The notes under the pieces were generated by a model. That model was not told the DNA's origin. It saw only the letters and a program-made list of their open reading frames with translations, and did not search any database. A stretch of DNA of 64,000 nt. It comes from Planctomycetaceae bacterium (GTDB taxonomy: Bacteria > Planctomycetota > Planctomycetia > Planctomycetales > Planctomycetaceae). Positions 16,604 to 45,601 of the stretch are shown here, piece after piece. The stretch spans positions 1 through 64,000 of the forward strand of contig JABURQ010000056.1 in NCBI GenBank assembly GCA_014762625.1, given 5' to 3'. The position numbers were made by a program, and so were the translations under genes. Numbering within the stretch: the first letter of the stretch is position 1; every line of letters begins with the position of its first letter.

Positions 16604-17989
16604 ATGCTCGAACTTTTGAAGGACAAATGGCGGACCGCTCGGTTAGGGGCTCGGTATCGTCGCATCTTGCAGGAGCAGGTCCTGGAGATGGTCGAGCAGC
16701 AATCGCCTCAACCGGTTCAGGAAGATCCGGGCCGCTGGCTGCTCCTCGGCGATCAGACATCGGGACCGTCGGAGCAGACGCGGAAGGATATTCGCTCGGC
16801 GGCACGGCGACTCGCTCAAAATCACCCGCATGCTCGCAACATTCTACGGCTGCTGGAGATTTATGTCGTCGGGCCGGGATTGAAGCTGTCCCATCACGCA
16901 CAAGAAGCCACCTCAGAGTCAGACGTCGATCTTGCAACAAACGCTGACCGTCTCTGGCGAAATTTTCTGAGATCGAACCGTCGTCATTTCTCTTTTCGGG
17001 AATTTGCCCGACGAACGTGGCGGGATGGAGAATGTTTTCTGCGGTTGTTTTCATCGGTGGATGACAGACCGACTGTTCGTTTCGTCGATCCCGAACGCAT
17101 CGGGCCGACGCGCGACACTCCCGAGTCGCAAGGAATTCTCACGGCAGAGGACGATGTCGAAACACCTCTCTCTTACCTTCAAATCGATCCCGAAACAGGA
17201 GAACTGGCGGAAGAAATTCCAGCTGACGAAATGCTGCATGCACGCATCGGCGTCGATTCCAATCAGAAACGGGGATTGTCTTTGTTCGCTCCCATGATTG
17301 AGATGCTGGGGTGTTTCGACCGCTGGTTAGAGACGGAAATGACGGCCCGCAAGCTACAGGCCTCGATTGTCTTGTGGCGAAAAGTGACCGGTTCCCCGGC
17401 ACAAGCTCGCGGTGTCTCACAAGAAGCTGCCAGCGGAAGTGGTGCCGGTCAAAACCGAGCGGGAACCCCACAAAAAGAACGTTACGGTCCCGGCAGTATT
17501 CTGACCACATCGGGTGGAACCGACCTTCAGTTTCTCCAGCCGAAGACCAACTTCGGCGATGCGGTTCCCCTGGGACGCATGATGTTGCTCTCCATCGCGG
17601 CGGGTGCCGGACTGCCCGAGTTTATGCTCACCTCCGATGCCTCCAACGCCAACTTTGCGTCCACGATGGTCGCCGAAGGGCCGGCCGTGAAGATGTTCCA
17701 AAGCGAACAAAATTTCTTTGCGGCGGAATTTGAGAACTTATGGAGCTGGGTGATGACCGCGGCCATCGATCGCGGCGAGTTGCCGATCGATTTCTTCGAA
17801 CAAATTCGTGTGGAGTGGAATTTTCCCGAACTGGTTAATCGCGATCGTCCTCGGGAACGGGAAGCCGATGTGCGTCTCGTCGAGCAGAAGATTCTTAGTC
17901 GTGCCGAAGTGGCACGCCGGGAAAAAATGGACCCCGACACGATGCGACGAGAGATTGCCGACGAGGAAGGAGCACTGATCGATGAATAA
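16604..17989 (+). CDS. Phage portal protein, lambda type
   Basis: First gene of the virion-like block. At 461 residues it is close to the usual size for the lambda-type portal family, a twelve-fold ring through which DNA enters the capsid. Family features are the N-terminal ARRLAQNHPHARNILRLLEIYVVGPGLKL, the WRDGECFLRL segment, FVDPERIG, the acidic DEMLHARIGVD stretch, and the C-terminal WNFPELVNRDRPREREAD helix. A Gly/Ser/Gln-rich insertion sits near residues 268-295. A large terminase subunit gene would be expected just upstream and is absent. Its stop overlaps the next gene by eight bases. Confidence 0.88.
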   Translation: MLELLKDKWRTARLGARYRRILQEQVLEMVEQQSPQPVQEDPGRWLLLGDQTSGPSEQTRKDIRSAARRLAQNHPHARNILRLLEIYVVGPGLKLSHHAQEATSESDVDLATNADRLWRNFLRSNRRHFSFREFARRTWRDGECFLRLFSSVDDRPTVRFVDPERIGPTRDTPESQGILTAEDDVETPLSYLQIDPETGELAEEIPADEMLHARIGVDSNQKRGLSLFAPMIEMLGCFDRWLETEMTARKLQASIVLWRKVTGSPAQARGVSQEAASGSGAGQNRAGTPQKERYGPGSILTTSGGTDLQFLQPKTNFGDAVPLGRMMLLSIAAGAGLPEFMLTSDASNANFASTMVAEGPAVKMFQSEQNFFAAEFENLWSWVMTAAIDRGELPIDFFEQIRVEWNFPELVNRDRPREREADVRLVEQKILSRAEVARREKMDPDTMRREIADEEGALIDE

Positions 17990-18419
17990 CAGTCTCGCCG
18001 AAATCGTCACCACCAGGACCGGGCGGCTGTTGTGGTTAACACATGAAAGGTTACCGCATCCCGATGCCGTGATCTGTCCCGCTGAAGAAGCTCACGTTCG
18101 GTTAGTGATCGGGCTGCTAGAAGACAGTTACGAACGACGCCGGGGGATTCTCCAACGACTGAAAGCCATTTCCCAAAAAATCAACACACTGGCTCCCATA
18201 GAGCGACCCAGTATTCCGGCCCGGATGCCGAACGGCTTGTACGAACCGATCTCCTGGCGTTTTGCATTGTGGCTGAGTCACGCCTTGGGGATCAAATCAG
18301 ACAGTTGCAGGCATGATTTGATTCGCCGCTTACAGCACTGGCTGGATGAAGGCGACGACTGTGATCGGATTTCGCTGACGGAGTTCGTTCAGCCATCTCT
18401 GAAGACAATGAAAGGATAA
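17982..18419 (+). CDS. Hypothetical protein of the phage-like block
   Basis: A 145-residue soluble protein that starts inside the last codons of the portal gene and is therefore translationally coupled. It is rich in Arg and helix-forming residues (EEAHVRLVIGLLEDSYERRRGILQRLKAI) and ends with a second helical part. No family was recognised. Its place between portal and protease suggests a structural or assembly role, but nothing in the sequence shows it. Confidence 0.6.
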   Translation: MNNSLAEIVTTRTGRLLWLTHERLPHPDAVICPAEEAHVRLVIGLLEDSYERRRGILQRLKAISQKINTLAPIERPSIPARMPNGLYEPISWRFALWLSHALGIKSDSCRHDLIRRLQHWLDEGDDCDRISLTEFVQPSLKTMKG

Positions 18420-18422
18420 GTC

Positions 18423-19298
18423 ATGACCGACACGATGACAGAAGCGGTGCAACAACTCACCGAGCGTATCACCGACTGGCGTTCGCCGACGATCGAGGTC
18501 GATGCCGCCAGTCGCTGGATCAGAAACATTGCCCTCGCGGGCCGCGATTCGCGGAACGGCTATCAATATTCGCAGGAAGCGCTGACCGACGCCGTTCAAC
18601 TTTACGAACACAAACCGGTCTTTCTCGATCACGCGGAACGTCTGACGAAACCGTTCGAACGTTCCACGCGGGACCTCGTCGGTAGCATTGTGAATGCCCG
18701 TTTCGAGGGCGATCGAATCCGCGGCGACATTCGCGTGTTGGACACGGAAGCGGGACGCACTTTTCTCGCGTTGGCGGAAGCCGAGCAAACCCCTGTCGGG
18801 ATGAGCCATGTCGTGCTGGCTCGTCGTTCGAACGATCGCAGGCAGGTCGAATCGATCGAAGAGGTGGTCAGCGTTGATGCCGTCATGTATCCCGCGACCA
18901 CACAAACATTTCAGGAAGCGACACAGCAGATTGATGAAGAATTGAAGAGTTTGCAGCAGGAGCGCGATGAACTCCTCGAACAGCTCCAGCAGACGAAGCA
19001 GGATCTCGCCACTTTGCAGGAACAACAATCTCGCACAGGCGAGCGTCTGCAATGGTTGGTGGAAAGTGGACTTCCCGACTTCGCACTCACGGAGGAGTTT
19101 CGGGAACAGATTCTCAAGGAAGAGGATCCGCAGCGCTGCCGGGCGTTCATTGAGGAACGCAAGCAGCTACTTCGACAAGCGTCGGCAAGGAGGCCGTCGA
19201 GTCGATCAAGGATGAGTTCTCCGAATGAAACCGACGACCGGGCGATTGTGAAAGCCATTCGCGGACGTCGCGGGACCGGCATTCCGAGGAGTCATTAG
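18423..19298 (+). CDS. Prohead protease-scaffold fusion
   Basis: A 291-residue protein with two parts. Residues about 20-165 resemble phage prohead serine proteases of the herpesvirus-assemblin-like type: His70 in VFLDH, Ser128-His129 in VGMSHV, and the following VDAVMYPATT strand. Residues about 168-215 form a Glu/Gln-rich coiled coil, typical of a scaffold that is later digested, and the tail is basic. Such fusions mature the capsid by cutting scaffold and coat. It starts three bases after the previous stop. The catalytic assignment is by motif position and not tested. Confidence 0.72.
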   Translation: MTDTMTEAVQQLTERITDWRSPTIEVDAASRWIRNIALAGRDSRNGYQYSQEALTDAVQLYEHKPVFLDHAERLTKPFERSTRDLVGSIVNARFEGDRIRGDIRVLDTEAGRTFLALAEAEQTPVGMSHVVLARRSNDRRQVESIEEVVSVDAVMYPATTQTFQEATQQIDEELKSLQQERDELLEQLQQTKQDLATLQEQQSRTGERLQWLVESGLPDFALTEEFREQILKEEDPQRCRAFIEERKQLLRQASARRPSSRSRMSSPNETDDRAIVKAIRGRRGTGIPRSH

Positions 19299-19311
19299 CG
19301 ATGGATCGCGA

Positions 19312-19369
19312 CCGCTCAGGGATGAGCGGCGGGCAAGGAAGCCCATTTTTACTCACAAATTTTCGTGAG
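19312..19369 (+). promoter_or_regulatory. Hairpin cluster before the decoration gene
   Basis: Three consecutive stems lie in the 124-base gap: ccgctca-ggga-tgagcgg (19312-19329, 7 bp perfect), gggc-aaggaa-gccc (19331-19344) followed by attttt, and ctcac/gtgag (19352-19369). The middle one with its T-run resembles a weak terminator. They could set the ratio of early head genes to coat genes or mark an mRNA-processing site. Confidence 0.4.
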
Positions 19370-19422
19370 CGCAGGCAAACCGTCTCACCAAATCAAACAC
19401 GGCATTGAAAGGAATAAAAATC

Positions 19423-19905
19423 ATGTCGAATCAGTTACGTTTTCGCAGCGGTCAGGTTTTTTTGCACAAGTTGCGGGTCGACTCGGGAACGGTCATTGAA
19501 GCGGGAGACATGGTGTTTCTCGATACGGACGATGTGAAGCCAGCGTCCGATTTCACCTTCACGACCGACCTGGCAACGACGCAGGGAAATTTCGCCGCCT
19601 CGTTTCTGGGAATTGCCCATCAGCAATCGGCGGATGGCGATACCGACGATCTGTCGATCGATTTGAGTCCGCATGCGGTTTACGAATTTGACGTCAATTC
19701 CGCCACCTATGAAGCGGGCGATCTGTTGGGACCGGACGAGCAATCGTCCGCACTCATGGACCAACAGCTCGAAGCGGTGGCCTCCTCAAATCTGGCGATT
19801 GCTCGCGCTGCCGAATACAAGGCCTCGGTGGCGGCCTTGCTGCGTGTGACCTTTGCTTCGGCGTTTCACGTCGGGTCAGCCAATGTGAATGCCCAGATCG
19901 GTTAA
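19423..19905 (+). CDS. Head decoration-like protein
   Basis: A 160-residue beta-rich protein directly before the coat gene. Features such as EAGDMVFLDTDDVKPAS, FLGIAHQQSADGDTDDLSI, and YEAGDLLGPD are typical of small capsid-decoration proteins (DUF2190 or gpD-like) that stabilise expanded heads. The ATG at 19423 has an aaagga site about nine bases upstream. Position and composition support the call; specific homology could not be tested. Confidence 0.65.
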   Translation: MSNQLRFRSGQVFLHKLRVDSGTVIEAGDMVFLDTDDVKPASDFTFTTDLATTQGNFAASFLGIAHQQSADGDTDDLSIDLSPHAVYEFDVNSATYEAGDLLGPDEQSSALMDQQLEAVASSNLAIARAAEYKASVAALLRVTFASAFHVGSANVNAQIG

Positions 19906-19959
19906 TTCAATCGAGTCGTTTCTTAGATCACAATTCACTTCCAGGAAGAAGGATATCTC

Positions 19960-21156
19960 ATGCAGGGACAAAATCTCAGCACATTGATGGAATCGCTCGG
20001 AGCCGAGGGGTTTTACCAGAAAATTTGCTCATTGTTGAACGAACAGGAATTGTCTGTCGACGATTTCAGCTATTACGAACTGGCCGATGCATGCGGCGTG
20101 TTGCCGAGACTTCGCAGCTTGCGGGAATCCGTCGCACCGGAAGGAGCTGTGACCGCACTGCTGCGGGAATCGAATCCCGGCGTGGGAACGAATCTGTTCC
20201 AGGTGGTAACGGGTGAGTTAATCGGTCGCAAAGTGATCGAAGGGTATGAAGACTCATCTGGTTTCATCGGCGACAAACTCGTTTCTGTCATGCCCAGCCG
20301 ATTGAGAAATCAGAAAATCGCCGGTTTTACAGCCTTGGCCGGACCGTCCGAAGTGGCCGAGGGGCATCCCTATGAAGAGTCAACGTTTGAAGAGAAATAC
20401 GTCACCACCGAAGAATCCAAGAAGGGGCGGATTCTCTCAATCAACGAAGAATTGATTGCTTTCGATCAAACGGGTGAAATTAATCGTCGCGCGATGGCGT
20501 TGGGTCATTATCTCCGTCAGGAACGCGAACGAACAATCGTGCGAGCCGTGACCGACGCCGATTCCGGAGCAGGGAAATTCGTCTATCGTCCGAACGGAAG
20601 CGGCCAGGCCCTCTACGCCGCCGATGGTACCCATCGCAACTACATCGGTGTGGGGAATACGACATCGAGTGGGTTCGATGCCGCCGTCCCGCTGATCGAC
20701 TGGACCGACATCGATACCGCGCTTTCCTACCGGGCGACGGAAGTGAAAGACGATCGCATCGACGGAACACCGCGACCGATTGTGATGCCCGTGAAACAGA
20801 TGCTGGTTCCCGAAGCCCTGCGAGGCACCGCCCTTTCGATTGTCAATTCGACCGATGTAACGGTCATCGCCAACGACCAGGAAACACGGTTCGCGAACCC
20901 GGTGAAAGGTCTGGTGGAAGTGTTGAGTTCGCCGTTTGTTGATGAAGTGGGCGGAGCGGCCCTTCAGGACTGGTACATCGGCGATTTCCAGAAACAGTTT
21001 GTCTGGACGGAAATCTGGCCGGTTCAGACCTTCCTGCAGCAGAACGACAGTGACGCGGCCTTCGAGCGCGATGTCGTGATGCGTGTGAAGGTCCGGTATT
21101 ACGGCGGTATCTCCGCAGTGGATACCGTGCATGTCACCAAAGTGGATGGCAACTGA
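19960..21156 (+). CDS. Major capsid protein
   Basis: A 398-residue coat protein of likely HK97 fold. Its position after portal, protease and decoration genes, its size, and features such as EGHPYEESTFEEKYVTTEESKKGRILSINEEL (an E-loop-like region), ERTIVRAVTDADSGAG and the C-terminal DAAFERDVVMRVKVRYYGG support it. An N-terminal segment of about 100 helical residues could be the part cleaved by the adjacent protease. It is separated from the next gene by 106 bases, one of the longest gaps in the block, as fits separate, high expression. Confidence 0.8.
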   Translation: MQGQNLSTLMESLGAEGFYQKICSLLNEQELSVDDFSYYELADACGVLPRLRSLRESVAPEGAVTALLRESNPGVGTNLFQVVTGELIGRKVIEGYEDSSGFIGDKLVSVMPSRLRNQKIAGFTALAGPSEVAEGHPYEESTFEEKYVTTEESKKGRILSINEELIAFDQTGEINRRAMALGHYLRQERERTIVRAVTDADSGAGKFVYRPNGSGQALYAADGTHRNYIGVGNTTSSGFDAAVPLIDWTDIDTALSYRATEVKDDRIDGTPRPIVMPVKQMLVPEALRGTALSIVNSTDVTVIANDQETRFANPVKGLVEVLSSPFVDEVGGAALQDWYIGDFQKQFVWTEIWPVQTFLQQNDSDAAFERDVVMRVKVRYYGGISAVDTVHVTKVDGN

Positions 21157-21262
21157 TCCGTTTCACCGTCCCCGTGGTGCTGTCGGCATTGATTGTCGTT
21201 GTTGAATTCGACAAGAGGCAGGGAAGCTTCCAGTACCACGTTTTTGATCACAGGAATTCGTC

Positions 21263-21817
21263 ATGAAGATTCTCGGACAAGAAACAACCTCTGACTTTAC
21301 GGTCACCAGGTCTTTCCTACGACCGGACGGTTCGGAAATGACGTTGAAACTCGCTCCGTTGCCGTTGAGATTTCAGAGTCGTCTGTATCAGCGAGAGATT
21401 GTAGCCCCCGTGCCGCCGCAACGAGTGGCTCGCGACTCGAAAGGTCGTCCTGTGAAAGATCGCGAGGGCCTGGCTGTTCTGATCAAAGACGAACACGACG
21501 GCGAGTATCTGGCCGCAATGGCCGACTATCAGCAGCAACTGGCTGTGTTGATGGTCTACGAAGGGTTGAGGCACGACGCGGATGTCAGTTTTGAATCCCA
21601 GCCTCCGGAAAACGGAAGCTGGAAATCGTTTGCGGAAGAATTGTGTCGGGAATTTGAAGCCGCGGGCTGGTCGTTGGGAGATTTGACCAGGGTGTGTGAA
21701 GAAATTTGTCGCCTCAGCAATCTCCTCGACGACCATTTGCGGGAATCCGAACAGGTTTTTTCCTCACCCGCTCCGGAAGTCGTGGCGGAGACTCCGTTGC
21801 GTGTCCACGATCCCTGA
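21263..21817 (+). CDS. Tail assembly chaperone-like protein
   Basis: A 184-residue protein that begins with a beta-strand domain (FTVTRSFLRPDGSEMTLKLAPLPLRFQ) and continues with helices. It resembles phage tail-assembly chaperones that hold the tape measure during tail assembly. Such chaperones (lambda G/GT) usually make a longer form by -1 ribosomal slippage. Here the -1 frame is open from before 21706 to 21951 and encodes a plausible extension, and the run gttttttcc lies at 21755-21763 within the overlap. The gene is placed before the lysis-like genes and not next to the tape measure, which is unusual. Confidence 0.62.
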   Translation: MKILGQETTSDFTVTRSFLRPDGSEMTLKLAPLPLRFQSRLYQREIVAPVPPQRVARDSKGRPVKDREGLAVLIKDEHDGEYLAAMADYQQQLAVLMVYEGLRHDADVSFESQPPENGSWKSFAEELCREFEAAGWSLGDLTRVCEEICRLSNLLDDHLRESEQVFSSPAPEVVAETPLRVHDP

Positions 21818-21846
21818 CTTACCTGATCTGGCGTTTCTGCGAGCGG

Positions 21847-21951
21847 ATGGGAGTGACACTGAAAGACTGGCAAGCACTGCCCTATCACGACCAGTTGAAG
21901 AGTCTCGCATACGAGCGACTCCGTCAACGGGAAGAACAACTCTCACATTAA
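21847..21951 (+). CDS. Tail chaperone -1 frame extension or separate 34-residue protein
   Basis: The -1 frame after the chaperone encodes, from about 21804, the segment SLTYLIWRFCERMGVTLKDW continuing QALPYHDQLKSLAYERLRQREEQ. This looks like the C-terminal domain common in phage chaperone extensions: a hydrophobic start, then W-x-x-L-x-x-x-x-x-x-x-L and a charged helix. It could be read by frameshifting (product about 229 residues) or alone from the ATG at 21847, which has only a poor ribosome-binding site. Frameshifting is favoured. Confidence 0.5.
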   Translation: MGVTLKDWQALPYHDQLKSLAYERLRQREEQLSH

Positions 21952-21978
21952 ACAATCAATCGAGAAAGGAATCTCATC

Positions 21979-22197
21979 ATGAAGGGCTCACCCAAATATC
22001 AATTGAACCGCGACGATCTCTCCGCCATCGCTCGAGGAGCGTTACTCGCAGCGGGCGGGGCCGTGATGGCGTATCTCAGCACGGAAGTGTTACCCAACTT
22101 GGATGAAAGCACGACGGCGGGAGCGGTCCTGGCGGGTGTCGGTGCAACGCTGCTCAATTTACTCCGGAAGTTTATGACGGATCAGGGGAATTCATGA
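21979..22197 (+). CDS. Holin-like small membrane protein
   Basis: A 72-residue protein with two hydrophobic segments (about 20-36, GALLAAGGAVMAYLS, and 47-62, GAVLAGVGATLLNLL), a short acidic loop (NLDESTT) and a charged C-terminus. This size and layout is typical of class II holins, which permeabilise the inner membrane at the end of phage growth. Its stop overlaps the next ATG (ATGA). The call is from architecture and neighbours. Confidence 0.5.
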   Translation: MKGSPKYQLNRDDLSAIARGALLAAGGAVMAYLSTEVLPNLDESTTAGAVLAGVGATLLNLLRKFMTDQGNS

Positions 22198-22436
22198 GTT
22201 GGCTCTCTTTATTGAAATCATTATTCGGGGCAATCGTCCATGCCATTGGGCAAGTCTTTGAATGGTTGAATCGTCGCGAGAAGAAACAGGAACGGGAGGA
22301 AGACAATGCACGAGTCTCAGACATCATGTCAGCAGCCGCGAAACCGACTCAGGAAAACGCGGATCGCCTTAATCGCTGGTTGGCTCGTGGTCGGAGTGGC
22401 CGGTTGCGCAAATCTGACCCTCCCGAGTCGCGTTGA
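22194..22436 (+). CDS. Possible inner-membrane spanin-like protein
   Basis: An 80-residue protein with an N-terminal amphipathic or hydrophobic helix (WLSLLKSLFGAIVHAIGQVF) followed by a highly charged helix (NRREKKQEREEDNAR). It overlaps the previous stop by four bases and has a lipoprotein gene nested in its second half in another frame, as in the Rz/Rz1 spanin pairs of phages. The spanin role is an inference; the hydrophobic part is short for a full membrane anchor. Confidence 0.45.
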   Translation: MSWLSLLKSLFGAIVHAIGQVFEWLNRREKKQEREEDNARVSDIMSAAAKPTQENADRLNRWLARGRSGRLRKSDPPESR

Positions 22437-22626
22437 GTACATTCCTGCCGACCGGGCCGTGATGCCACTCGCGAAAGGACAGCCGGCACCTGCAGATGGT
22501 TGGTACATCCCCCCCGCCGTCTTGCAGGAGATGATTCCTTACCTCGATGAAAAATACCGCAACGTCGAGGACCTGGAACCCTCTCCGAAATCTCCCAATT
22601 CAAATGTGGAAAGGAGAACGCCATGA
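22306..22626 (+). CDS. Nested lipoprotein, possible outer-membrane spanin
   Basis: A 106-residue protein whose start lies within the preceding gene in a +1 frame, overlapping it by 131 bases. A strong gggagga site at 22294-22300 confirms this nested start. The N-terminus has a basic region, a hydrophobic core (IALIAGWLVVGV) and the lipobox VAGC, so it is lipid-anchored; the mature part is short and Pro-rich. Together with the gene around it this copies the Rz/Rz1 layout. Its stop overlaps the next start (ATGA). Confidence 0.55.
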   Translation: MHESQTSCQQPRNRLRKTRIALIAGWLVVGVAGCANLTLPSRVEYIPADRAVMPLAKGQPAPADGWYIPPAVLQEMIPYLDEKYRNVEDLEPSPKSPNSNVERRTP

Positions 22627-22919
22627 CCGACCTCACCGATCTTTCCAGCGTTTCCGGAGACGAGCTGACGGAATCGCAAATCAAAGGGATTCTCGCGCAG
22701 ATCGATCTCGACATTACGAACCTTGTGCGAGACGGAAAGCTTTCTGCCCTCAATTATGCCGTGGGAGGACAGGCCGGACGGACCGCCGATCGAGCGGGAA
22801 ATTTGCGGGCGCTCCTCGATGCACGCACTCACTATCAACAGTTGCTCGAATCCGCCCCGAGTTGGAACGTCAATCAGTTCGAGGGACAGAAATCTCAACG
22901 ACAGGATCTCTCCTCATGA
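22623..22919 (+). CDS. Small helical protein, possible head-tail connector
   Basis: A 98-residue protein with helices around ESQIKGILAQIDLDITNLVRDGKLSA and RAGNLRALLDARTHYQQLLESAPSW. The acidic start, mid-protein Gly-rich turn and size are reminiscent of gpW-like connector proteins, but the similarity is weak. It overlaps both neighbours by four bases (ATGA on each side), so it is surely part of the operon. Confidence 0.5.
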   Translation: MTDLTDLSSVSGDELTESQIKGILAQIDLDITNLVRDGKLSALNYAVGGQAGRTADRAGNLRALLDARTHYQQLLESAPSWNVNQFEGQKSQRQDLSS

Positions 22920-23158
22920 ATTTCAACCTTCATGACGAACGTCTGGACCGACTTGTGGAGGCCGTTCAGCAAACCAATCTCCTGCTGGAAGGTATGAAGA
23001 TTACGTTGACGCAAATTTCGGAACGATCCATCGATCACGAAGACCGCTTGAGAGTGCTGGAAAAGTGGCGTCATAACCTGACACCGATACTGGCAGCACT
23101 GACGTTTCTTTCGGGAGCGGTGTTTTCGGAGATGGTTCAACGCATGTTGTTTCACTGA
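22916..23158 (+). CDS. XhlA-like coiled-coil membrane protein
   Basis: An 80-residue protein: an N-terminal coiled coil (HDERLDRLVEAVQQTNLLL through ISERSIDHEDRLRVLEKW) and one C-terminal membrane helix (LTPILAALTFLSGAVFSEM). This is the layout of the XhlA family, which works with a holin in some phages and PBSX-like elements to release particles. It begins in the stop codon of the gene before it. The family call rests on layout and not on detailed similarity. Confidence 0.5.
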   Translation: MNFNLHDERLDRLVEAVQQTNLLLEGMKITLTQISERSIDHEDRLRVLEKWRHNLTPILAALTFLSGAVFSEMVQRMLFH

Positions 23159-23186
23159 GTCAGTAAGACGGAATGAGACGTAACCA

Positions 23187-23552
23187 ATGAATCTTGAAAA
23201 CACACAACTGAAAGCGGATCGCGACCGGCTGTTCGCCGATTGGGGAGAACAGATCACATTTCGGCGTATCGCGCAAACCTTCACTCCCGAAACTCAACAA
23301 ATTTCGGAGAGCGAAACCGAATGGACTTTGTTGACACTCGTCGGCAACCGTCCGTCAGCCAACATTCCCGCTGCCGGCGGACAGGTACAAACGATTGATC
23401 TGGTTCTTCAGGTCAAAGCGGAAGAGTGGAGCGGTTCTGTCGGTGAGACCACCTGGCGAGCCGATGTCGCAGGATCGGCTTATGAAGTGATCGGCCAGTC
23501 GGCCGCCGCCGACGGCAACGTTATTGAATTAATCTGTCGAAAGGTGGCCTGA
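23187..23552 (+). CDS. Head-tail adaptor-like protein
   Basis: A 121-residue protein with an N-terminal helix and a beta-barrel-like region (GEQITFRRIAQTFTPETQQISE, then QTIDLVLQVKAEEW and YEVIGQSAAADGNVIELICRKVA). Strand pattern and place match SPP1 gp16 or Gp9-type head-tail adaptors. It is followed one base later by the gp10-like gene. Assignment is from position and strand pattern. Confidence 0.55.
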   Translation: MNLENTQLKADRDRLFADWGEQITFRRIAQTFTPETQQISESETEWTLLTLVGNRPSANIPAAGGQVQTIDLVLQVKAEEWSGSVGETTWRADVAGSAYEVIGQSAAADGNVIELICRKVA

Positions 23553-23553
23553 C

Positions 23554-23982
23554 ATGATCTCAAGACACTATCAAACCGATTCGCAGGGATTGACGGAGGC
23601 GCTGATTGAGATTCAAAGCCGGACATTAAATCGAATTCGGAAGCGGTTCGTGGACCAGGTCCTCGTGGAGACTCTCCACAGACTCATCGACCGACATCCG
23701 GTGGAAACGGGCCGCGCTCGGAACGCCTGGCAGACCGCTCAGACTCAGCTCCAGCATGGAGCCGTTGCCGATGACTCGACCGAGGGCGGCTCGCGATTTC
23801 AGGAGGACCGTCACGTCTCGACTGCCGAAGCGACAAACCGTGTGAACTATGTTATGTTTCTGGAAGAGGGGACTCGTGAAATGCGTCCCCGCCATCTGGT
23901 CGCCAAGTCACTGGCGGAGGTGATACTCAGGATCGAACAGATCGCGGTACCCATCGTCAGAGAGGAGTTGCAGACCCCATGA
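23554..23982 (+). CDS. HK97 gp10-like tail component
   Basis: A 142-residue tail-completion protein. The motif H-P-V-E-T-G-R-A-R-N-A-W and the later NRVNYVMFLEEGTREMRPRHLV region match the gp10/gpZ-like family, in which the T-G-x-x-R-x-x-W segment and the Y-x-x-x-x-E-x-G-T...P-x-x-x segment are typical. These proteins cap or join the tail to the head. The stop overlaps the next start (ATGA). Confidence 0.72.
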   Translation: MISRHYQTDSQGLTEALIEIQSRTLNRIRKRFVDQVLVETLHRLIDRHPVETGRARNAWQTAQTQLQHGAVADDSTEGGSRFQEDRHVSTAEATNRVNYVMFLEEGTREMRPRHLVAKSLAEVILRIEQIAVPIVREELQTP

Positions 23983-24446
23983 CTGAAGTTCTTTCTCAGG
24001 AAGCGATCGCTGCCAGCTTGCTCTCCTTCTGGAAATCCCGGTTTGATGGCAGCGTCACAACCATCTATCCCGGCATGAAAGTCGATACCACCTCGCTCTC
24101 GGAATGGGTCGAAATCTGGGTCGATTCCTGGTCGCGTCGGCCACAGCGTCTGGGAGGGATACCGTACCTCGATGTGACGGCGACCGTGCATTGTTTTGTC
24201 AAATCAGGACAGGAGAGCGGACGCATCCAGGCCATCACCGATTCCGTTCGCACTGTTTTCGCGCAAGAATCGATCCCGCTAAAAGATTACTCAGAAAGCG
24301 CGGTGCCGACCATCGGATTGATCCGATTGAAAGAACCGGAAACCCGCAATCTGACGAGACATCAGACCGGCAGCCTGCAGATCGTGCTCCATCATACCGC
24401 CGTCATTGTGCGAGGAGCCGCACAAGCGGAAACCGCTCTCAACTGA
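23979..24446 (+). CDS. Tail terminator-like minor tail protein
   Basis: A 155-residue protein of the type found between the gp10-like gene and the tail tube in siphoviruses (lambda U-like). It has an N-terminal helix, a Trp-rich strand (LSEWVEIWVDSW), a central DVTATVHCFVKS segment and a late VLHHTAVIVRG strand. The family match is by position and strand pattern, so confidence is moderate. Confidence 0.55.
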   Translation: MTEVLSQEAIAASLLSFWKSRFDGSVTTIYPGMKVDTTSLSEWVEIWVDSWSRRPQRLGGIPYLDVTATVHCFVKSGQESGRIQAITDSVRTVFAQESIPLKDYSESAVPTIGLIRLKEPETRNLTRHQTGSLQIVLHHTAVIVRGAAQAETALN

Positions 24447-24482
24447 TGACAAATCCGATTCATTTCCAAGGAAGGAATACCG

Positions 24483-24992
24483 ATGTCCGTATCCAATATT
24501 GTTCGCAACCTGCGCGACGGTGAGTTGGTGATCAAAGACGGCACCACACCGACCGCCCAGTCGCTCACACTCCTGCTTGATGAAGGTGATCTGAACTGGT
24601 CACAACGCACTAACACGATTGAGATTAAGGACCGCGGTTCGATCGCCGACGGACACACGCGACCGGGCGATGACGAGTCGATTTCTCTTTCGTTTACCAC
24701 CAAATGGACACAACTGATCGGGAAGTCCGCCGATGCCGCCGACCCGCTCCAATTGTACGAGTTGCTGATGTTCGCCAGCGGAACCGATGTGATGAGCACT
24801 TCTGGCAGCGGTCAACAGGAGACCTTGCGGTTTGAATTTACCGTCACGGATCCTGCGGGTCAGGCCAGTGAGAAAATCATTTTCGACAAGGTTTATCGCG
24901 AATCACTTTCGATGTCGGAGGGGGATGACTTCAACGTCATTGCGTTCCGCGGGCGAGATTTTGAAACGGTGCCCATCCTCGAACGGCTTTGA
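24483..24992 (+). CDS. Tail tube protein
   Basis: A 169-residue beta-rich protein expected to polymerise into the tail tube. Features are SVSNIVRNLRDGELVIKDG at the start, the central ESISLSFTTKW and the C-terminal FRFEFTV...ASEKIIFDKVYRESLSMSEGDDFN, which has the strand-loop pattern of phage major tail proteins. It lies directly before the tape measure gene, as in other tailed phages. No sheath-like gene is near, so the tail would be non-contractile. Confidence 0.62.
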   Translation: MSVSNIVRNLRDGELVIKDGTTPTAQSLTLLLDEGDLNWSQRTNTIEIKDRGSIADGHTRPGDDESISLSFTTKWTQLIGKSADAADPLQLYELLMFASGTDVMSTSGSGQQETLRFEFTVTDPAGQASEKIIFDKVYRESLSMSEGDDFNVIAFRGRDFETVPILERL

Positions 24993-25034
24993 TTTCATCA
25001 GTGATGCAGCATTCATTCCGTAGAGAGGAGAATC

Positions 25035-25745
25035 ATGGCCAATTTGAACGAGTCTTTGACAATCAAGATTCAGGGAGACAGTAGCGGCTTCAGTCGTGAA
25101 CTGGATCAAGTCGTGTCTCAAGTGACGAATCTGGAAAGTCGTCTCAACAGTGTCGATTCCGCCAGTCAGCGGCTGGCTTCCTCGCTGCAAGGATTGAGGA
25201 GCGCGATGGCCCCGATCAACCGGATCAGTCAGGCTTTGGAGCAAGTGAAACAGCAAATGACGTCGCTCTCAAGCACTCCCATCACTCTGAATGTGCAACC
25301 GGCGTTAAATGCGTTGCAGTCCTTGCAGGCCCAGATCGCCGCGACGCGTGCACAGCTGCAAGCGCTGCAAGGGATGTCGGCGACCGGTGCGGGATTCGGG
25401 GGCGCGGGAGCCGTCGGTTACGCTCACGGGGGACTGGTCAATGGACGTCCCGGCCTCGATCGGATTCCCGCGATGTTGACCGCGGGGGAATTCGTCGTTC
25501 GTGAGTCATCCGTCAATCAGTTGGGCGTGCAATTTCTGAGCGTGCTGAATGAACGAGGTTCCTTGCCTCAGCGATCAGCCTCTCGGGAGAACATTCGCGA
25601 GTTGAATGAGAGCGATCGTACGGTTCCCTCGCCACAGACACATTTTGGTGGCGTCAATATCCACGTGCGGCAGACCACCGACTTGCCCGGCGTGATCCGA
25701 GAATTGCAGGCGGGAGGCGTACGACTCCGGAATCGCCGCGGGTAA
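25035..25745 (+). CDS. Very short tape measure-like protein
   Basis: A 236-residue protein with helical, Ser/Gln-rich repeats (LESRLNSVDSASQRLASSLQ, then LQAQIAATRAQLQALQ) and the C-terminal segment GYAHGGLVNGRPGLDRIPAMLTAGEFVVRESSVNQLG, which is characteristic of phage tape measure proteins. Typical tape measures are 600-1500 residues. Since tail length tracks tape length at roughly 0.15 nm per residue, this implies a tail of only about 35 nm. No large gap or second tape gene exists nearby. Confidence 0.65.
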   Translation: MANLNESLTIKIQGDSSGFSRELDQVVSQVTNLESRLNSVDSASQRLASSLQGLRSAMAPINRISQALEQVKQQMTSLSSTPITLNVQPALNALQSLQAQIAATRAQLQALQGMSATGAGFGGAGAVGYAHGGLVNGRPGLDRIPAMLTAGEFVVRESSVNQLGVQFLSVLNERGSLPQRSASRENIRELNESDRTVPSPQTHFGGVNIHVRQTTDLPGVIRELQAGGVRLRNRRG

Positions 25746-25783
25746 ATCTTTTTCAATCTTCAGTTACGCAGGGAAGTGAGAAC

Positions 25784-26236
25784 ATGGCCTTTGTGTTTCA
25801 GCCGGGTGTTTATCGAAACAGCAATCTGTATTTGTTGCCTCGCCCCGTTTCAACGTTGCGTGTAACAGAGGGATGGGATTTCCAGCAATTCAAAGTTCCC
25901 CTCAAAGCCGGCGACGTGCATGTGGGACACTCGAAAGATGGTCTAAATATCCTGATCGAAGGGCAGTTTGGAACTCAGGACGGGTCGTTGAAGTTGAACG
26001 AAGAAGAGATGTTTGTCGCTTTGGAGTCGTTGAGGATGGCGTTGGATGTGACTTCTGATGCGGACAAGTTTGAGTTCTTCACTTATTACGACGTTTCCTC
26101 GTCAACGTATCGGAAATACAAAGCATGCTCGACGATTCGCTTGGAATATGATCTCTCCAGTCCGCATCTCTTTACCTATTCCGCGACGCTTCACGCCGAC
26201 GATCCCGCGATTTATTCTACCGCTCCGGGAGGTTGA
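25784..26236 (+). CDS. Distal tail-like protein
   Basis: A 150-residue beta-rich protein beginning MAFVFQPGVYRNSNLY, with KAGDVHVGHSKDGLNILIEGQFG and a late FTYYDVSSSTYRKYKACSTIRLEYD. Its place between tape measure and hub fits a distal tail protein (Dit-like) that forms the tip ring. The next start follows two bases later. Assignment is by position. Confidence 0.5.
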   Translation: MAFVFQPGVYRNSNLYLLPRPVSTLRVTEGWDFQQFKVPLKAGDVHVGHSKDGLNILIEGQFGTQDGSLKLNEEEMFVALESLRMALDVTSDADKFEFFTYYDVSSSTYRKYKACSTIRLEYDLSSPHLFTYSATLHADDPAIYSTAPGG

Positions 26237-26238
26237 GA

Positions 26239-27813
26239 ATGGCTGCAGGATTTGAAAGAACGATCCGACATTATCAGTCCGACGCGACGACTCTGGTAGG
26301 GAGCATCGAGAGTTCGGCGGTTGTCGGCTGTTGGTTTGAATTACATCGCCAGGGGGGATGTGGCGCGGGAGAACTCCGGCTCCAAGACGGATTTCTAGCA
26401 CGGAATCAGATCGATATCGGTGACTGGATATCTCTGGAGTACAGCCCCGACGATCGCTGGTATTTCGGACGCGTCGAATCCCGATCCGCGGATAGCCCTG
26501 CCGGAGTTCGTTTCCGCCTCGAAGGAATGGCCATTGAACTGAATGAAGTCTTTCCGGGAGGATTTGGCGAATCGGCCGAGGGCGTCCCTCCTCATCGCTA
26601 CGCCAACACGGATTTGTTCCAGAACGATCCCGATTACCTGCTGGAAACCTTCGACTCCGTCGCGACCACGGCTCAGCTCGTCCAGGCCCTGATGAATCAG
26701 TACGTGATCTCCGCGACAAATATCTCTCTCGATCCATTGGATATTGAAGAGGCCCCCGATGAAGCGGGGCTCACCAGTTTCAAATTTCGCGGCGAGGAAT
26801 CGGTCCGTTCGATTTTGAAGGATTTGGCACTGAGAGCCAATAATGCCAGTTGGGGTGTGGATGAAACCGGTGCGTTCTTTTTTTTACAACCGGTCACCAC
26901 TGTATCGACGACATATCGGGAAGGAGTTCATCTCAGTCGGCTGGAAGAATCCCGAGACCGCGATTTACTTTACAATCGCGTGCTGTTGACGGGTGGGTAT
27001 GTTTATGACGAACCGGTGAATTCGTTCAATCGGGCACGCGGATTCTATCGCTGGCGCGGACACTATCTGCAACCGGACAGTCGTGCGTTACATGGCGAAC
27101 GTCGTATCCGGCTATGGGTTCCCTGGATACGGACCGAGCCTGATTCTCTCGCCTTCATTCGAGAGTTCTTTCGCACCTATTCGCAGCCTGTCTCGATTTA
27201 CTTTCTCGAAGCTCCCGATCAATCCACCTTGTTAAGACCGTGGGATTCGGTGCTTCGACTGCTCGACCGAAACGGCTCGGAATTGATGACGTCGCAAATT
27301 GAAACCTTGCGAGTTCAGTTCGATCATACTCCCACATTTCGGATGGAGTTAGGACCCGCCGATCCGCATACACTCTGGCCCGAACCTCCCCAAGACGAGC
27401 GGTGGGAAACGCCGGAGAATCATGGGAATGGTGGAAGTGTCTCTCTGACCCCCGACCCGACATCGTTCAATGAATCTTCAGTCAGTTCACTCGATTCGCT
27501 GACGTCAATGAGTTCGGTCCTGTCACTCACCAGCGAAGAGACCGTAACGACGCTGGAACCGACGACGACATTCGAGTCGACGACCACTCTTGAGCCTACA
27601 ACCACCCAACAATCGACAACATCGCAAGAACCGTCGACAACAGAAGTTCCGGGAACCACGTCCTCACAGTCAAGCGATTTCGGTGGGGGAGAAACCGTGA
27701 CTTCTATCGGACAGTCTGGGACCGAAGTCCCCTCAAGTGCAACGACCACTGACAATACCACGAATGACAGTGTCACCAGTGAAACATCCACAGCGCAGAC
27801 AACGGCAACTTAG
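26239..27813 (+). CDS. Tail hub-like protein with mucin-like Ser/Thr tail
   Basis: A 524-residue protein. Residues 1-395 resemble phage tail hub or late-control proteins: GDWISLEYSPDDRWYFGRVESRS, EGMAIELNEVFPGG, a YVISATNISLD region and LLTGGYVYDEP. Residues about 400-524 are of a different kind: by hand count 64 of 125 are Ser or Thr, with runs of EPTTT and ESTTT and little hydrophobic content, like a mucin or O-glycosylated stalk. Three sugar-related genes follow. The start at 26239 has a ggagg site seven bases upstream. The tail domain may bind hosts or be glycosylated. Confidence 0.68.
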   Translation: MAAGFERTIRHYQSDATTLVGSIESSAVVGCWFELHRQGGCGAGELRLQDGFLARNQIDIGDWISLEYSPDDRWYFGRVESRSADSPAGVRFRLEGMAIELNEVFPGGFGESAEGVPPHRYANTDLFQNDPDYLLETFDSVATTAQLVQALMNQYVISATNISLDPLDIEEAPDEAGLTSFKFRGEESVRSILKDLALRANNASWGVDETGAFFFLQPVTTVSTTYREGVHLSRLEESRDRDLLYNRVLLTGGYVYDEPVNSFNRARGFYRWRGHYLQPDSRALHGERRIRLWVPWIRTEPDSLAFIREFFRTYSQPVSIYFLEAPDQSTLLRPWDSVLRLLDRNGSELMTSQIETLRVQFDHTPTFRMELGPADPHTLWPEPPQDERWETPENHGNGGSVSLTPDPTSFNESSVSSLDSLTSMSSVLSLTSEETVTTLEPTTTFESTTTLEPTTTQQSTTSQEPSTTEVPGTTSSQSSDFGGGETVTSIGQSGTEVPSSATTTDNTTNDSVTSETSTAQTTAT

Positions 27814-27842
27814 CCCACAATCGAATCCTTCGGAGAGAAACC

Positions 27843-28916
27843 ATGTCGCTGTTCTACCGCATGGCCGCAGACAAGACGAAGCAACCGGTGGCTCTCGCGA
27901 ATCAGTTCGCCGGGACAGAATCTGCCGCCTGTTGGTTAATCGGAGGCGGTCCCTCGCTAAACGAATTGCCGATCTCCGAGATCGTCAATTCGCCGTTCCC
28001 TCAAATGACGACCAATCTCGCCGGTCATGGTCTCCTCAGACCGACATTTTGGACCTCTTACGACCCCTCTGTCAGATTTCATCGGTCCATCTATCTCGAC
28101 CCTTCGATCATGAAGTTCGTACATCCGCGGCGCGCCATGGATCTGGTTCCCGAGACAACGTTCAAAGTTTGTGATTGTCCCAACCTCTATTTTTTCGAGC
28201 CGGAGACGGATCGCGGGTTTGCGAATTTTCTGTCGCCTCAAAGCTCCACCATCGTCGACTGGAACGACACGCTGGTTCAAGCCATCGATCTGCTGTATCA
28301 ACTCGGTTTTCGCCGTGTGTATCTCGTCGGCACCGAAATGATCGTTCATCCTTCCGAGAACTGGATCGAGGAAGCCGCAAAAGTGGGCGTGACTTATGAC
28401 CCCTGGATGCTGTTGGGAGATTTCTCGAAACAGTGCGAAGCGGCGGGACTGTCGCGAGAACGACAGGCAGAACTGGGAACCGGGGATCAATATCATTTTG
28501 ACGAACAAAAACCGTTGGCGGCGTCCATCAATACCGATGCGCATTACTTTCGCGTCGCCCAGTATCTCCGATTGTGCCGACGCGCCATCTCTCTCGCCGG
28601 CATGAGTCTGGTTTCGGCAACTCCAGGGAGTCGGCTGAATGACTATTTCCCCTATGAGACCGTCGAACAAATCTGCCAACGGGAAAGTGAGCGGATTGGT
28701 TATCCGCCGGAATCGTCCGTGAAAGGGTTTTACACGGGGACCGCCGAGCGACAGACGGGAGGCAGCGGTCCGATGCGGGACTATCGTCCGCATCACTGGA
28801 AAACGAATGCTCCCACAAAAGCTCCAAACCCCGAGCAGAAACCGATTCCCGATCGAGACAAGTTGAAAGTTTATCTGAACGCTCCGCCCGAAGTGGAAAT
28901 CAGGGAGGAAGGTTAG
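27843..28916 (+). CDS. DUF115/sialyltransferase-like protein
   Basis: A 357-residue protein whose front half shows the nucleotide-sugar-binding look of DUF115 and related glycosyltransferases: CWLIGGGPSLNELP, TFWTSYDPSVRFH, IVDWNDTLVQAIDLLYQLGFRRVYLVGTE, and later GTGDQYHFDE and SLAGMSLVSATPGSRLNDYFPY. The C-terminal 80 residues are Pro-rich. It lies 29 bases after the hub gene. An enzyme that adds a sugar to a protein or glycan is likely, but the donor is unknown. Confidence 0.55.
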   Translation: MSLFYRMAADKTKQPVALANQFAGTESAACWLIGGGPSLNELPISEIVNSPFPQMTTNLAGHGLLRPTFWTSYDPSVRFHRSIYLDPSIMKFVHPRRAMDLVPETTFKVCDCPNLYFFEPETDRGFANFLSPQSSTIVDWNDTLVQAIDLLYQLGFRRVYLVGTEMIVHPSENWIEEAAKVGVTYDPWMLLGDFSKQCEAAGLSRERQAELGTGDQYHFDEQKPLAASINTDAHYFRVAQYLRLCRRAISLAGMSLVSATPGSRLNDYFPYETVEQICQRESERIGYPPESSVKGFYTGTAERQTGGSGPMRDYRPHHWKTNAPTKAPNPEQKPIPDRDKLKVYLNAPPEVEIREEG

Positions 28917-29567
28917 ATGACAACATCCGTCATTATCCCTCAGTACGGCGAGTTTGATCTGACGCAACGCCTGATTCGTAATCTCGAAGTTTACGAACAT
29001 CCCACCACGGAGTTGATTATTGTCGATGATGGGAGTCCTGAATTGGACCGTTTCCATGCCCCGCCAATAAACCATCTGAAAGTGGTGGCTCAACCGCATC
29101 GGGGAGTCACCGCCGCCTGGAACCGGGGAGTTCATCATTCCTGCGGAGAGGTTCTGATTTTCCTGAATAATGATGTGACATGCACTGGGGCGTGGATCTC
29201 TCGATTGCGGGAACCGCTGGAAGATCGAAACGTCGTGCTGGCCGGCCCACGAATGCGACGAGAGCGACTGATTCCGCATGCGGTGGCTCAGGAATTTTCT
29301 CGGTGCGTTCTGGAAGGATGGTGTTTTGCCGTCCGACGACAGGACTTTCTCCGTGTGGGCGGTTTTGACGAACGGTTCGAGATGTATTTTTCGGACACCG
29401 ATTTTCAATGGCGACTCTTGAAAATGAATCAACAGGGATGTTTGAGAGAAGTCCCGGATCTCCCTTTGAAACATGCGGGACATGCCACCACTCGCCATCT
29501 CGATCGACGACGCGATGTTCACGCCTCGGATCGCAGGAAATTTCTTCAGAAATGGAGTTGCAGATGA
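28917..29567 (+). CDS. Family 2 glycosyltransferase
   Basis: A 216-residue soluble GT-A enzyme. Seen motifs are VIIPQYGEFDLTQRLIRNLE, LIIVDDGSPE (nucleotide binding), GVTAAWNRGVHHSCGEVLIFLNNDV, and the late GGFDERFEMYFSDTDFQWRL with the acidic residues of family 2. It begins one base after the gene before and overlaps the next by four bases. No membrane segment is visible, so a lipid-linked acceptor is less likely than a protein. It probably acts on the adjacent tail hub or on a particle glycan. Confidence 0.82.
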   Translation: MTTSVIIPQYGEFDLTQRLIRNLEVYEHPTTELIIVDDGSPELDRFHAPPINHLKVVAQPHRGVTAAWNRGVHHSCGEVLIFLNNDVTCTGAWISRLREPLEDRNVVLAGPRMRRERLIPHAVAQEFSRCVLEGWCFAVRRQDFLRVGGFDERFEMYFSDTDFQWRLLKMNQQGCLREVPDLPLKHAGHATTRHLDRRRDVHASDRRKFLQKWSCR

Positions 29568-30535
29568 CTCTGTCTCCTCATCTGCTTCAAGTCTGTAATG
29601 TGGGGACGGTCGTCGGAGGGACGGGAGCCTGTGCGTGGACTGTGACGCGTGCTCTCCCTGACTGGAAACACACCGTGCTTTTTTTCAGCCCCGTCCGTCA
29701 GGAGACTCGAAAGGCTTTTGATGAGATCTCCGTGGAAACGATCTCCCGACTGAAACGCTCTGAGTTGGAAAAGTATGCTCCCGATCTGGTTCTCTATCAC
29801 AATACAGCCCGGCATCGAATCGAAGAAGAGTGCCTGACGTGGCGGGCGATCTACTATCAACATTCTCGGGTCGCCGCCTGGTCGGAGATCTCGACGGTCG
29901 CCTGTTCATCGTGGTTGTCGTCACAGGTTCCCGCCAAAGATCGTCCCGAGGTTTTGCAGCAGGCAGTTCCGAGGGCTGTCCGACCAATCTGCACCAGTCG
30001 TCGTGCCCGTTTGGGAGAAGAGATTGTGGTGGGGCGGATCTGTACGCCTTCTGACCGGAAATGGCCTCGGGAATTAATTCCCTGCTATCGACAACTGGCT
30101 CAGGAGCATCCCCAAATCGTCTGGGAGTTTGTCGGTTGCCCGAAGTCCTTGCAGGCGGAACTTCAACCCGCCGTCAATCATCGCGTCAATTTTCACGAAG
30201 CGGGTTGGGATGCCAGAAGCCATTATTGGAATTGGGATGTGCTTCTCTATCACCATCCCACACTGACCGAGTCATTCGGCAGAACCGTCGCCGAAGCGAT
30301 GAGAACGGGCTGCATTCCTGTTGTCGATCGTCGAGGTGGCTTTTGTGAACAGATCGAAGCAAACTCGGGGTTTCTCTGCGAGAATCTGGAGGAATTCTCC
30401 GCGGTGTTGCAGGTTCTCCGAGATCCGAGCGAAAGAATCGCTCGGAGTCGTCGATGTCGTGCCATCGGAGATGAGAAGTTTTCGCTGCGCGGATTTCGCA
30501 AACGGCTTTTGAACCAATTTCAGCGTCTGCTTTAA
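29564..30535 (+). CDS. Family 4-type glycosyltransferase
   Basis: A 323-residue GT-B enzyme with an N-terminal NVGTVVGGTGACAWTV glycine-rich loop and the C-terminal family 4 signature LTESFGRTVAEAMRTGCIPVVDRRGGFCEQI (E-x7-E). It overlaps the previous gene in an ATGA start. It is the last gene of the phage-like block and ends four bases into the convergent AAA ATPase gene. Together with the two genes before it, it makes a small sugar-transfer module. Confidence 0.8.
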   Translation: MTLSPHLLQVCNVGTVVGGTGACAWTVTRALPDWKHTVLFFSPVRQETRKAFDEISVETISRLKRSELEKYAPDLVLYHNTARHRIEEECLTWRAIYYQHSRVAAWSEISTVACSSWLSSQVPAKDRPEVLQQAVPRAVRPICTSRRARLGEEIVVGRICTPSDRKWPRELIPCYRQLAQEHPQIVWEFVGCPKSLQAELQPAVNHRVNFHEAGWDARSHYWNWDVLLYHHPTLTESFGRTVAEAMRTGCIPVVDRRGGFCEQIEANSGFLCENLEEFSAVLQVLRDPSERIARSRRCRAIGDEKFSLRGFRKRLLNQFQRLL

Positions 30536-42435: not shown

Positions 42436-43212
42436 TCAGTCAAATTCCGGACGTCGCATCCCGAGCTGCTCTTTCAACCGTGAAACTATGCTGGAGTGCA
42501 TTTGACTGACGCGAGATTCAGAAAGGCCGAGAGTCGTCCCGATTTCTTTCATCGTCAACTCTTCATAGTAATACAGAATAATGATCAATCGCTCGTTACG
42601 ATTCAGCCCTTTGGTGACGAGCTTCATGATGTCGAGCTTCTGGATGCTGTTTGTGGGGTCTTCTCCCTTGGCATCTTCGAGAATGTCAATTTCACGAACG
42701 TCTTTGTAGCTGTCGGTTTCGTACCACTTTTTATTCAAACTCACCACACCGACCGCGTTGGCATCGTTCTTCAGCTTTTCGTATTCATCGAGTGGCAGAC
42801 CCAGTTTCTTGGCAACCGCCGCATCGCCGGGAGGACCACCGGCTTCCGCTTCCGCTTCTTTGCGGGCAGCTTCCAGCTTGCTGGCTTTACTGCGAACGAG
42901 TCGCGGAACCCAGTCCATCGTCCGTAGTTCATCGAGCATGGCTCCTCGAATTCGGGGAACACAATAAGTCTCGAATTTGACTCCCCGTTCCAAATCGAAC
43001 GCCTCGATGGCATCCATCAAGCCGAAGACCCCAGCGGACATCAGATCGTTCATATCGACGCCGTCGGGCAGCTTCGCCCACACACGTTCCGCGTTATATC
43101 GCACGATCGGCAAATACTTCTCGATCAAACGATTTCGAAGAGATTGATCCGATTGATCCTTCTTGAACTCGGTCCAAAGTTGTAATGTTGCGTCGTCGAC
43201 TTTGGTTGCCAT
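42436..43212 (-). CDS. fliA: Flagellar sigma factor FliA (sigma-28)
   Basis: A 258-residue sigma factor of the FliA/WhiG group. Region 2 has YLPIVRYNAERVWAKLPDGVDMNDLMSAGVFGLMDAIEAFD and FETYCVPRIRGAMLDELRTMDWVPR; region 4 has LTMKEIGTTLGLSESRVSQMHSS, the DNA-binding helix-turn-helix. It directs transcription of late flagellar and motility genes, usually with the anti-sigma FlgM. It is the last gene of the flhA-flhF-flhG-fliA order, after a 256-base gap with two hairpins. Confidence 0.92.
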   Translation of the reverse strand: MATKVDDATLQLWTEFKKDQSDQSLRNRLIEKYLPIVRYNAERVWAKLPDGVDMNDLMSAGVFGLMDAIEAFDLERGVKFETYCVPRIRGAMLDELRTMDWVPRLVRSKASKLEAARKEAEAEAGGPPGDAAVAKKLGLPLDEYEKLKNDANAVGVVSLNKKWYETDSYKDVREIDILEDAKGEDPTNSIQKLDIMKLVTKGLNRNERLIIILYYYEELTMKEIGTTLGLSESRVSQMHSSIVSRLKEQLGMRRPEFD

Positions 43213-43271
43213 GAAACTCTCCGTGGATATGTTATTTCTGTCTGTCGATCAGAGCGAGATAGGTCTGGGTG

Positions 43272-43324
43272 GTCGGAGATGAATTCTCCGACGCGGTGGT
43301 ATTGGGGTGAGATTTGAAATCTCA
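43272..43324 (-). promoter_or_regulatory. Two hairpins in the fliA leader
   Basis: gtcggaga-tgaat-tctccgac (43272-43292, 8 bp perfect stem, 5-base loop) and tgagattt-g-aaatctca (43308-43324, 8 bp arms around one base) lie 60-110 bases before fliA. The second is a near-perfect palindrome that could also be an operator. No T-run follows either in the transcribed direction. Confidence 0.5.
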
Positions 43325-43468
43325 ACTCTCGAAGGTCTTAAAATCAGGACGCATTGAGAGCCCCTATTTGGTATCGGTCATCATGATCGGCAAATTGAGT
43401 AAAATCGTCATAAACCTGAAATACTTTTTAATAAGAGAAAACTCCCCAAACAGCCCAGACAGCCAATT

Positions 43469-44344: not shown

Positions 44345-44388
44345 GTTGGATTCCAAATGTAAACGTGTCGTTAAAGCCGGGAAGGGAA

Positions 44389-45585: not shown

Positions 45586-45601
45586 AGAGTATCCTGACGG
45601 C

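Follow-up and report, generated by a model that had tools for sequence, protein, structure and literature searches.

A block of tailed-phage particle genes in a Planctomycetaceae genome probably belongs to a vertically inherited, host-domesticated particle system, a viriform resembling gene transfer agents (GTAs) that is known here from its genes alone. We regard domestication as very likely, packaging of DNA by the predicted particle as likely, and transfer of that DNA to other cells as plausible. The window, by which we mean the whole 64,000-nucleotide stretch analyzed, corresponds to positions 1 to 64000 of contig C35 in a 6.2-Mb assembly of 208 contigs that is 99.99% complete (G000). A domesticated, possibly GTA-like particle had been proposed in a first-pass annotation of this DNA, and the proposal is supported by a terminase on another contig (C133), co-occurrence of the parts across the family, purifying selection, and broad single-copy presence. 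The scattered set, inherited like cell genes in many members of the family, points to a previously undescribed GTA-like lineage.

The particle locus occupies window positions 16604 to 30535 and is real and intact (Table 1). As the first-pass annotation stated, its genes run in one direction with many overlaps, as seen in the open reading frame list, and the block of phage particle genes that it described is backed by Pfam or PHROGs for the portal, protease, decoration/cement protein, coat, connectors, terminator, and tape measure. The claimed hub was borne out by its predicted fold rather than by a sequence family. The probable tail tube is identified by gene position and by conservation in relatives; no family match was found. 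The lysis-like genes are present as reading frames (21979 to 22197, 22194 to 22436, and 22306 to 22626), with a weak PHROG match, and counterparts of the three were found in G035, G044, and G052 only; no endolysin was found. Of the three claimed glycosyltransferase-type genes, one is a GT2 enzyme and one is GT1/GT4-like, and the third has a Maf-type fold. The tape measure is only 236 aa long, and the tail is therefore predicted to be short. A start at 29408 was considered for the last gene and rejected in favor of 29564, which is more probable given its ATGA overlap with the preceding stop.

Table 1. Genes of the particle locus, in window coordinates
Feature	Position	Strand	Evidence
Portal protein, lambda family	16604..17989	+	Pfam PF05136 E=5.5e-38; phrog_21 E=1.4e-49; orthologues 48-64% identical in ~45 family genomes
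o2, small conserved protein without family match	17982..18419	+	Several relatives have a 34-41% identical gene between portal and protease
Head maturation protease / scaffold	18423..19298	+	phrog_207 E=1e-4; kept in every relative locus
Decoration / cement protein	19420..19905	+	Pfam PF09956 E=9e-5, just under cut-off; 48-77% identical in most relatives
Major coat protein, HK97-type	19960..21156	+	Pfam PF25209 E=6e-19; single-copy family orthologues 70-81% identical
o6, probable tail assembly chaperone, first part	21263..21817	+	Conserved with overlapping next frame; role inferred from overlap
o7, probable second tail chaperone, small ORF	21706..21951	+	Overlaps o6 in other frame; 31-47% identical in relatives
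Three small ORFs for membrane proteins or lipoproteins, possibly a holin and a nested spanin-like pair	21979..22626	+	Weak holin PHROG E=0.034
o11, 98 aa, probable small connector	22623..22919	+	53-76% identical in most tailed relatives; no family match
o12, small coiled-coil membrane protein	22916..23158	+	phrog_5225 E=4e-7 (PHROG of unknown function)
Head-tail adaptor / head closure	23187..23552	+	phrog_1951 E=0.008; phrog_161 E=0.017
Neck / tail completion protein	23554..23982	+	phrog_5 E=1.7e-7
Tail terminator	23979..24446	+	phrog_179 E=1e-4
Probable tail tube protein	24483..24992	+	Lies between terminator and tape measure; relatives have 57-73% identical proteins; no family match
Short tape measure protein, 236 aa	25035..25745	+	phrog_58 E=1.9e-9; further tape-measure PHROGs also match
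Probable distal tail protein	25784..26236	+	35-58% identical; directly 5′ of hub in relatives
Tail/baseplate hub with Ser/Thr-rich C-terminal extension	26233..27813	+	Predicted fold; no sequence family
Maf-like glycosyltransferase	27843..28916	+	Predicted fold; 45-55% identical in relatives
GT2 glycosyltransferase	28917..29567	+	Pfam PF00535 E=2e-18
GT1/GT4-type glycosyltransferase, inferred start 29564	29564..30535	+	Pfam PF13692 E=4e-9

The predicted fold of hub residues 1 to 403 (pLDDT 85) matches the hubs of contractile injection systems, Mu gp44, and T4 gp27, with a best E value of 3e-16. The last 121 aa of the protein are 51% Ser/Thr, and many relatives, though not all, also end in a Ser/Thr-rich tail. 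For the Maf-like protein, the predicted fold matched the Maf flagellin glycosyltransferase 5mu5 with a Z score of 14.2 in VIA-align; Foldseek gave a weaker match and was by itself indecisive. The sugar genes are conserved together with the tail in relatives and belong to the element, and the adjacent transferases may glycosylate the Ser/Thr-rich hub end at the tail tip. Genes for a sigma factor and for flagellar FlhA lie at window positions 42436 to 47749, ∼12 to 17 kb from the cluster, a proximity of interest given the likeness of the Maf-like enzyme to a glycosyltransferase of flagellin. A hub homologue (G023:C58:73990-75036) is the sole part of the element left in G023, and two genomes of the same genus have all parts.

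The scanned flanks consist of ordinary host genes, including those for RNase III, TatD, PolX, FlhA, and IspH. The window and flanks next to the cluster yielded no terminase, integrase, repressor, tRNA, Rfam RNA, or att-like direct repeat, in agreement with the first-pass annotation on the missing terminase and integrase. The direct repeats that the region does contain resemble coincidental matches, none of them a convincing att repeat, and a promoter scan of the region stayed at chance level.

The first-pass annotation had made DNA packaging conditional on a terminase elsewhere in the genome, and a large terminase (TerL) was indeed found. Searching the genome with the PHROG terminase profile phrog_2 identified a 530-aa reading frame on contig C133 that also matches phrog_9 (E = 9e-25) and TerL_ATPase above the cut-off; a genome search with PF03237 gave no match. 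A second phrog_2 match, on C45, was rejected as a terminase because that reading frame resembles PhoH. The frame directly before TerL matches small-terminase (TerS) PHROGs, and the resulting five-gene module has the order ParB-like protein, ABC ATPase, GNAT protein, TerS, TerL. TerL and its neighbors are 59 to 87% identical, in conserved order, in two genomes of the same genus, and C133 was assigned to G000 on that basis. Judging from contig sizes, the particle locus and the terminase would be at least about 29 kb apart. The ATPase and candidate nuclease residues of TerL are invariant across 17 sequences. The ParB-like, ABC-type ATPase, and GNAT genes (L053:11725-13760) accompany TerS and TerL in nearly every lineage examined. 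A host ThiF gene adjoins the module in about eleven genera (G000, G003, G059, G040, G018, G007, G025, G037, G104, G024, G001, G013, and G044), and this flank is kept whether or not the module is linked to the head genes.

Among 150 genomes of the family, the coat gene is present in 46, TerL in 50, and the portal in 46 (two of them fragments). Coat and TerL occur together in 43 genomes, coat alone in 3, TerL alone in 7, and neither in 97 (Fisher P = 2e-26, with the sets compiled by hand and phylogeny ignored); phylogenetically independent pairs all had the same direction (4/4, P = 0.125, an underpowered comparison). All 36 coat-bearing family genomes that are ≥90% complete also have an orthologous portal and large terminase, usually located elsewhere. 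The coat orthologues are distributed over dozens of genera, without internal stops, and carriers include Thalassoglobus, Alienimonas, and Planctomicrobium. All parts, terminase included, are contiguous in G001, G013, G024, G044, and G050. Terminase and portal lie 460 kb from coat and tail in G018 and about 127 kb away in G066, and G070 has three places, one for the portal, one for coat and tail, and one for TerL. In the finished genome G004, the single-copy parts are at 0.11 Mb (coat), 3.51 Mb (TerL), 3.69 Mb (portal), and 3.71 Mb (tail), a spread over megabases that makes packing of the complete element into one particle implausible. Since genes that are needed occupy distant chromosomal places in many relatives, a particle would be unable to carry the whole set, and the element would therefore not spread as a phage.

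Pairwise dN/dS values (NG86) indicated purifying selection in all genes tested: 0.020 to 0.036 for the coat, 0.04 to 0.08 for the portal, 0.03 to 0.08 for TerL, 0.035 to 0.06 for the tube, and 0.06 to 0.11 for the hub, with GT2 the most relaxed (0.28 to 0.53). The coat and TerL trees follow rpoB, with distance correlations of 0.53 and 0.65, respectively (P = 0.0005; 24 genomes). When each genus is represented by a single genome, the correlation holds for TerL (0.50, P = 0.0015) and is weak for the coat (rho = 0.26, P = 0.07). Occurrence at the same site within the genus and purifying selection, which the first-pass annotation had singled out as informative, were thus both observed. Coat presence changes at least nine times on the rpoB tree, so the gene was lost often or sometimes exchanged. 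In G003 and G059, of the same genus, the site has the same neighbors, and all that lies between these is a piece of the portal (aa 1 to 149 and 1 to 298, respectively); the cluster was therefore once present and then deleted, with differing endpoints. At these scars (L116 in G003:C93 and L115 in G059:C39), the loss concerns the cluster; the terminase module is intact in both genomes, with a TerL dN/dS of 0.07.

These deletion remnants, together with the phage-type gene order and the contiguous, terminase-containing modules of five genomes, are what might be expected of an ordinary or decaying prophage that lost its terminase and other genes or had them moved away by rearrangement. We consider that explanation highly improbable. 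Integrase, att sites, and an adjacent terminase, or else sporadic insertion, were to have marked an ordinary prophage and were not seen, and decay was seen in part, as the cluster deletion in two species of one genus. The uninterrupted, single-copy coat orthologues and the low dN/dS of every gene tested speak against a prophage, as does a comparison with 50,697 phage records, which gave no relative for either coat or TerL; joint retention of unlinked parts largely refutes it. A particle that has lost DNA packaging and is empty or delivers protein, in the manner of a tailocin, is also very unlikely. The terminase does lie outside the operon, and G003 and G059 keep it without particle genes, which means that the two are not strictly coupled. 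However, head, portal, and TerL are kept most consistently and several lineages lack tube and hub, a pattern opposite to that of tailocins; no effector gene was identified, and TerL retains its invariant catalytic residues and low dN/dS.

The lineages with no recognizable tail bear on a further alternative, in which a DNA-packing head is the selected function, the tail is dispensable, and DNA-filled capsids remain intracellular or are released by lysis, without tail injection. Tube and hub are both undetected, with coat, portal, and TerL kept, in g15 (G015, G064, G086, and G104), G017, G021, G022, G058, G007, and G061. The four g15 genomes are 95 to 100% complete, and neither they nor G017, G021, G022, and G058 contain a tube or hub homologue at any place in the genome; the g15 head loci (L040 and L042) run from portal, protease, decoration protein, and coat straight into host-like genes, and the coat dN/dS is 0.035. 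Tube and tape measure are unrecognizable in G025 and G035, and in G050 neck and terminator are missing as well. In G286, from another family, the coat is not followed by any recognized tail gene; instead, the locus (L223) continues into EF-P and other host genes. On the other side, the tail set of the window element is complete and evolves under purifying selection, and tail genes elsewhere may be too diverged to detect, above all in the divergent G007 and G061; we therefore judge the alternative unlikely as an account of the system. Lineages that keep head and motor under strong purifying selection without a tail would, on this view, imply a capsid role independent of injection. A broader version, in which domesticated capsids across the class have head, portal, and terminase as the selected unit, to the exclusion of the tail, and would act as DNA-filled capsids without phage-like injection, is a doubtful but tenable reading of the genomic pattern.

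Outside the family, the coat profile has matches, mostly single-copy, in 104/397 genomes of the class. Families f9, f10, f11, f12, and f23 share the order ABC-TerS-TerL-portal-protease-decoration-coat, as do f7 and f14 as far as the loci reach. The coats of those families are 61 to 80% identical to that of G286 and only about 30% identical to that of the window. A second, diverged clade of the element (L223 to L239) extends over nine or more further families of the class. In the coat tree, the sequences of f7, f9 to f14, f19, and f23 join those of f1 and f8 by a very long branch. On account of this branch, we do not claim that the whole class goes back to one ancient acquisition; two related domestications have at least equal probability. 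The best phage match of the portal is only about 24% identical, and a single IMG/VR contig, with the contiguous arrangement, was matched.

If the preferred reading of a domesticated, GTA-like particle is right, a few cells would, under some condition, express the particle cluster and the terminase module. TerS and TerL would fill an HK97-type head with host chromosomal DNA by way of the portal, and neck, tube, short tape measure, and hub would form a short tail whose Ser/Thr-rich tip might be glycosylated by the three neighboring transferases. Lysis would then free the particles, which could inject DNA into kin. Planctomycetota would thereby join the groups with GTA-like particles, probably by independent domestication, and the family would offer a natural series of stages, from a contiguous cluster, through a split-off terminase and two to four loci, to loss of the tail or loss of the head with the terminase kept. 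Carriers in named genera make particle production and gene transfer directly testable. More generally, calling a prophage without terminase from a single locus can mislead if packaging genes are unlinked.

GTAs are defined by caudoviricete-derived proteins, full endogenization, often at multiple loci, and mostly vertical inheritance with host co-diversification, and further by packaging of mostly random host DNA, a head too small for the full gene set, and delivery of DNA to cells (PMC9662315). The system described here shows the first three, genomic traits. Its proteins are caudoviricete derived, as judged by the families of portal, coat, terminase, tape measure, and connectors and by the fold of the hub. 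The terminase is on another contig, finished relatives have at least two loci, and no mobility genes were found. Vertical inheritance is indicated by the rpoB correlations (weak for the coat with one genome per genus), the ThiF flank, and same-site presence within the genus. A complete temperate prophage would have an integrase and att sites, which are absent from the window and flanks, and a linked terminase. In the open-access literature, we found no report of a planctomycete GTA.

The closest parallel is the Brachyspira GTA BhGTA (VSH-1, Brachygtaviriformidae), a ∼16-kb cluster without terminase whose single-copy, conserved terL lies outside it and which co-diversified with the host genus (PMC9662315). 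Both systems have a particle cluster without terminase and a terL elsewhere in the same genome, and Brachyspira therefore provides a precedent for a detached terminase. By its published description, BhGTA differs in its phylum and in having an endolysin in the cluster, whereas the planctomycete system has a five-gene terminase module, portal, head, and tail genes that are also unlinked in some genera, and a span covering the family and beyond. In RcGTA, terL is inside the main cluster, unlike the terL described here, which is outside the particle cluster. RcGTA (Rhodogtaviriformidae) is encoded at several loci, with R. capsulatus having five, and is vertically inherited (PMC9662315). The two systems are alike as domesticated, multilocus, vertically inherited tailed-phage particles; the coat profile and TerL had no match among PDB sequences, which may suggest an independent origin. 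Esterman et al. (PMC7947584) mention a Zavarzinella prophage TerL that is near RcGTA TerLs. Tailed prophages with a lambda-type portal and ParB, ABC, and GNAT packaging genes share the order terminase-portal-protease-decoration-coat-neck-tail and the PHROG families of portal, terminase, ABC, and GNAT proteins, but the planctomycete element differs from them in having no integration, replication, or regulation genes and in being unlinked in most genera. Neither its coat nor its TerL has a relative among isolated phages, so the element is probably independent of known GTAs.
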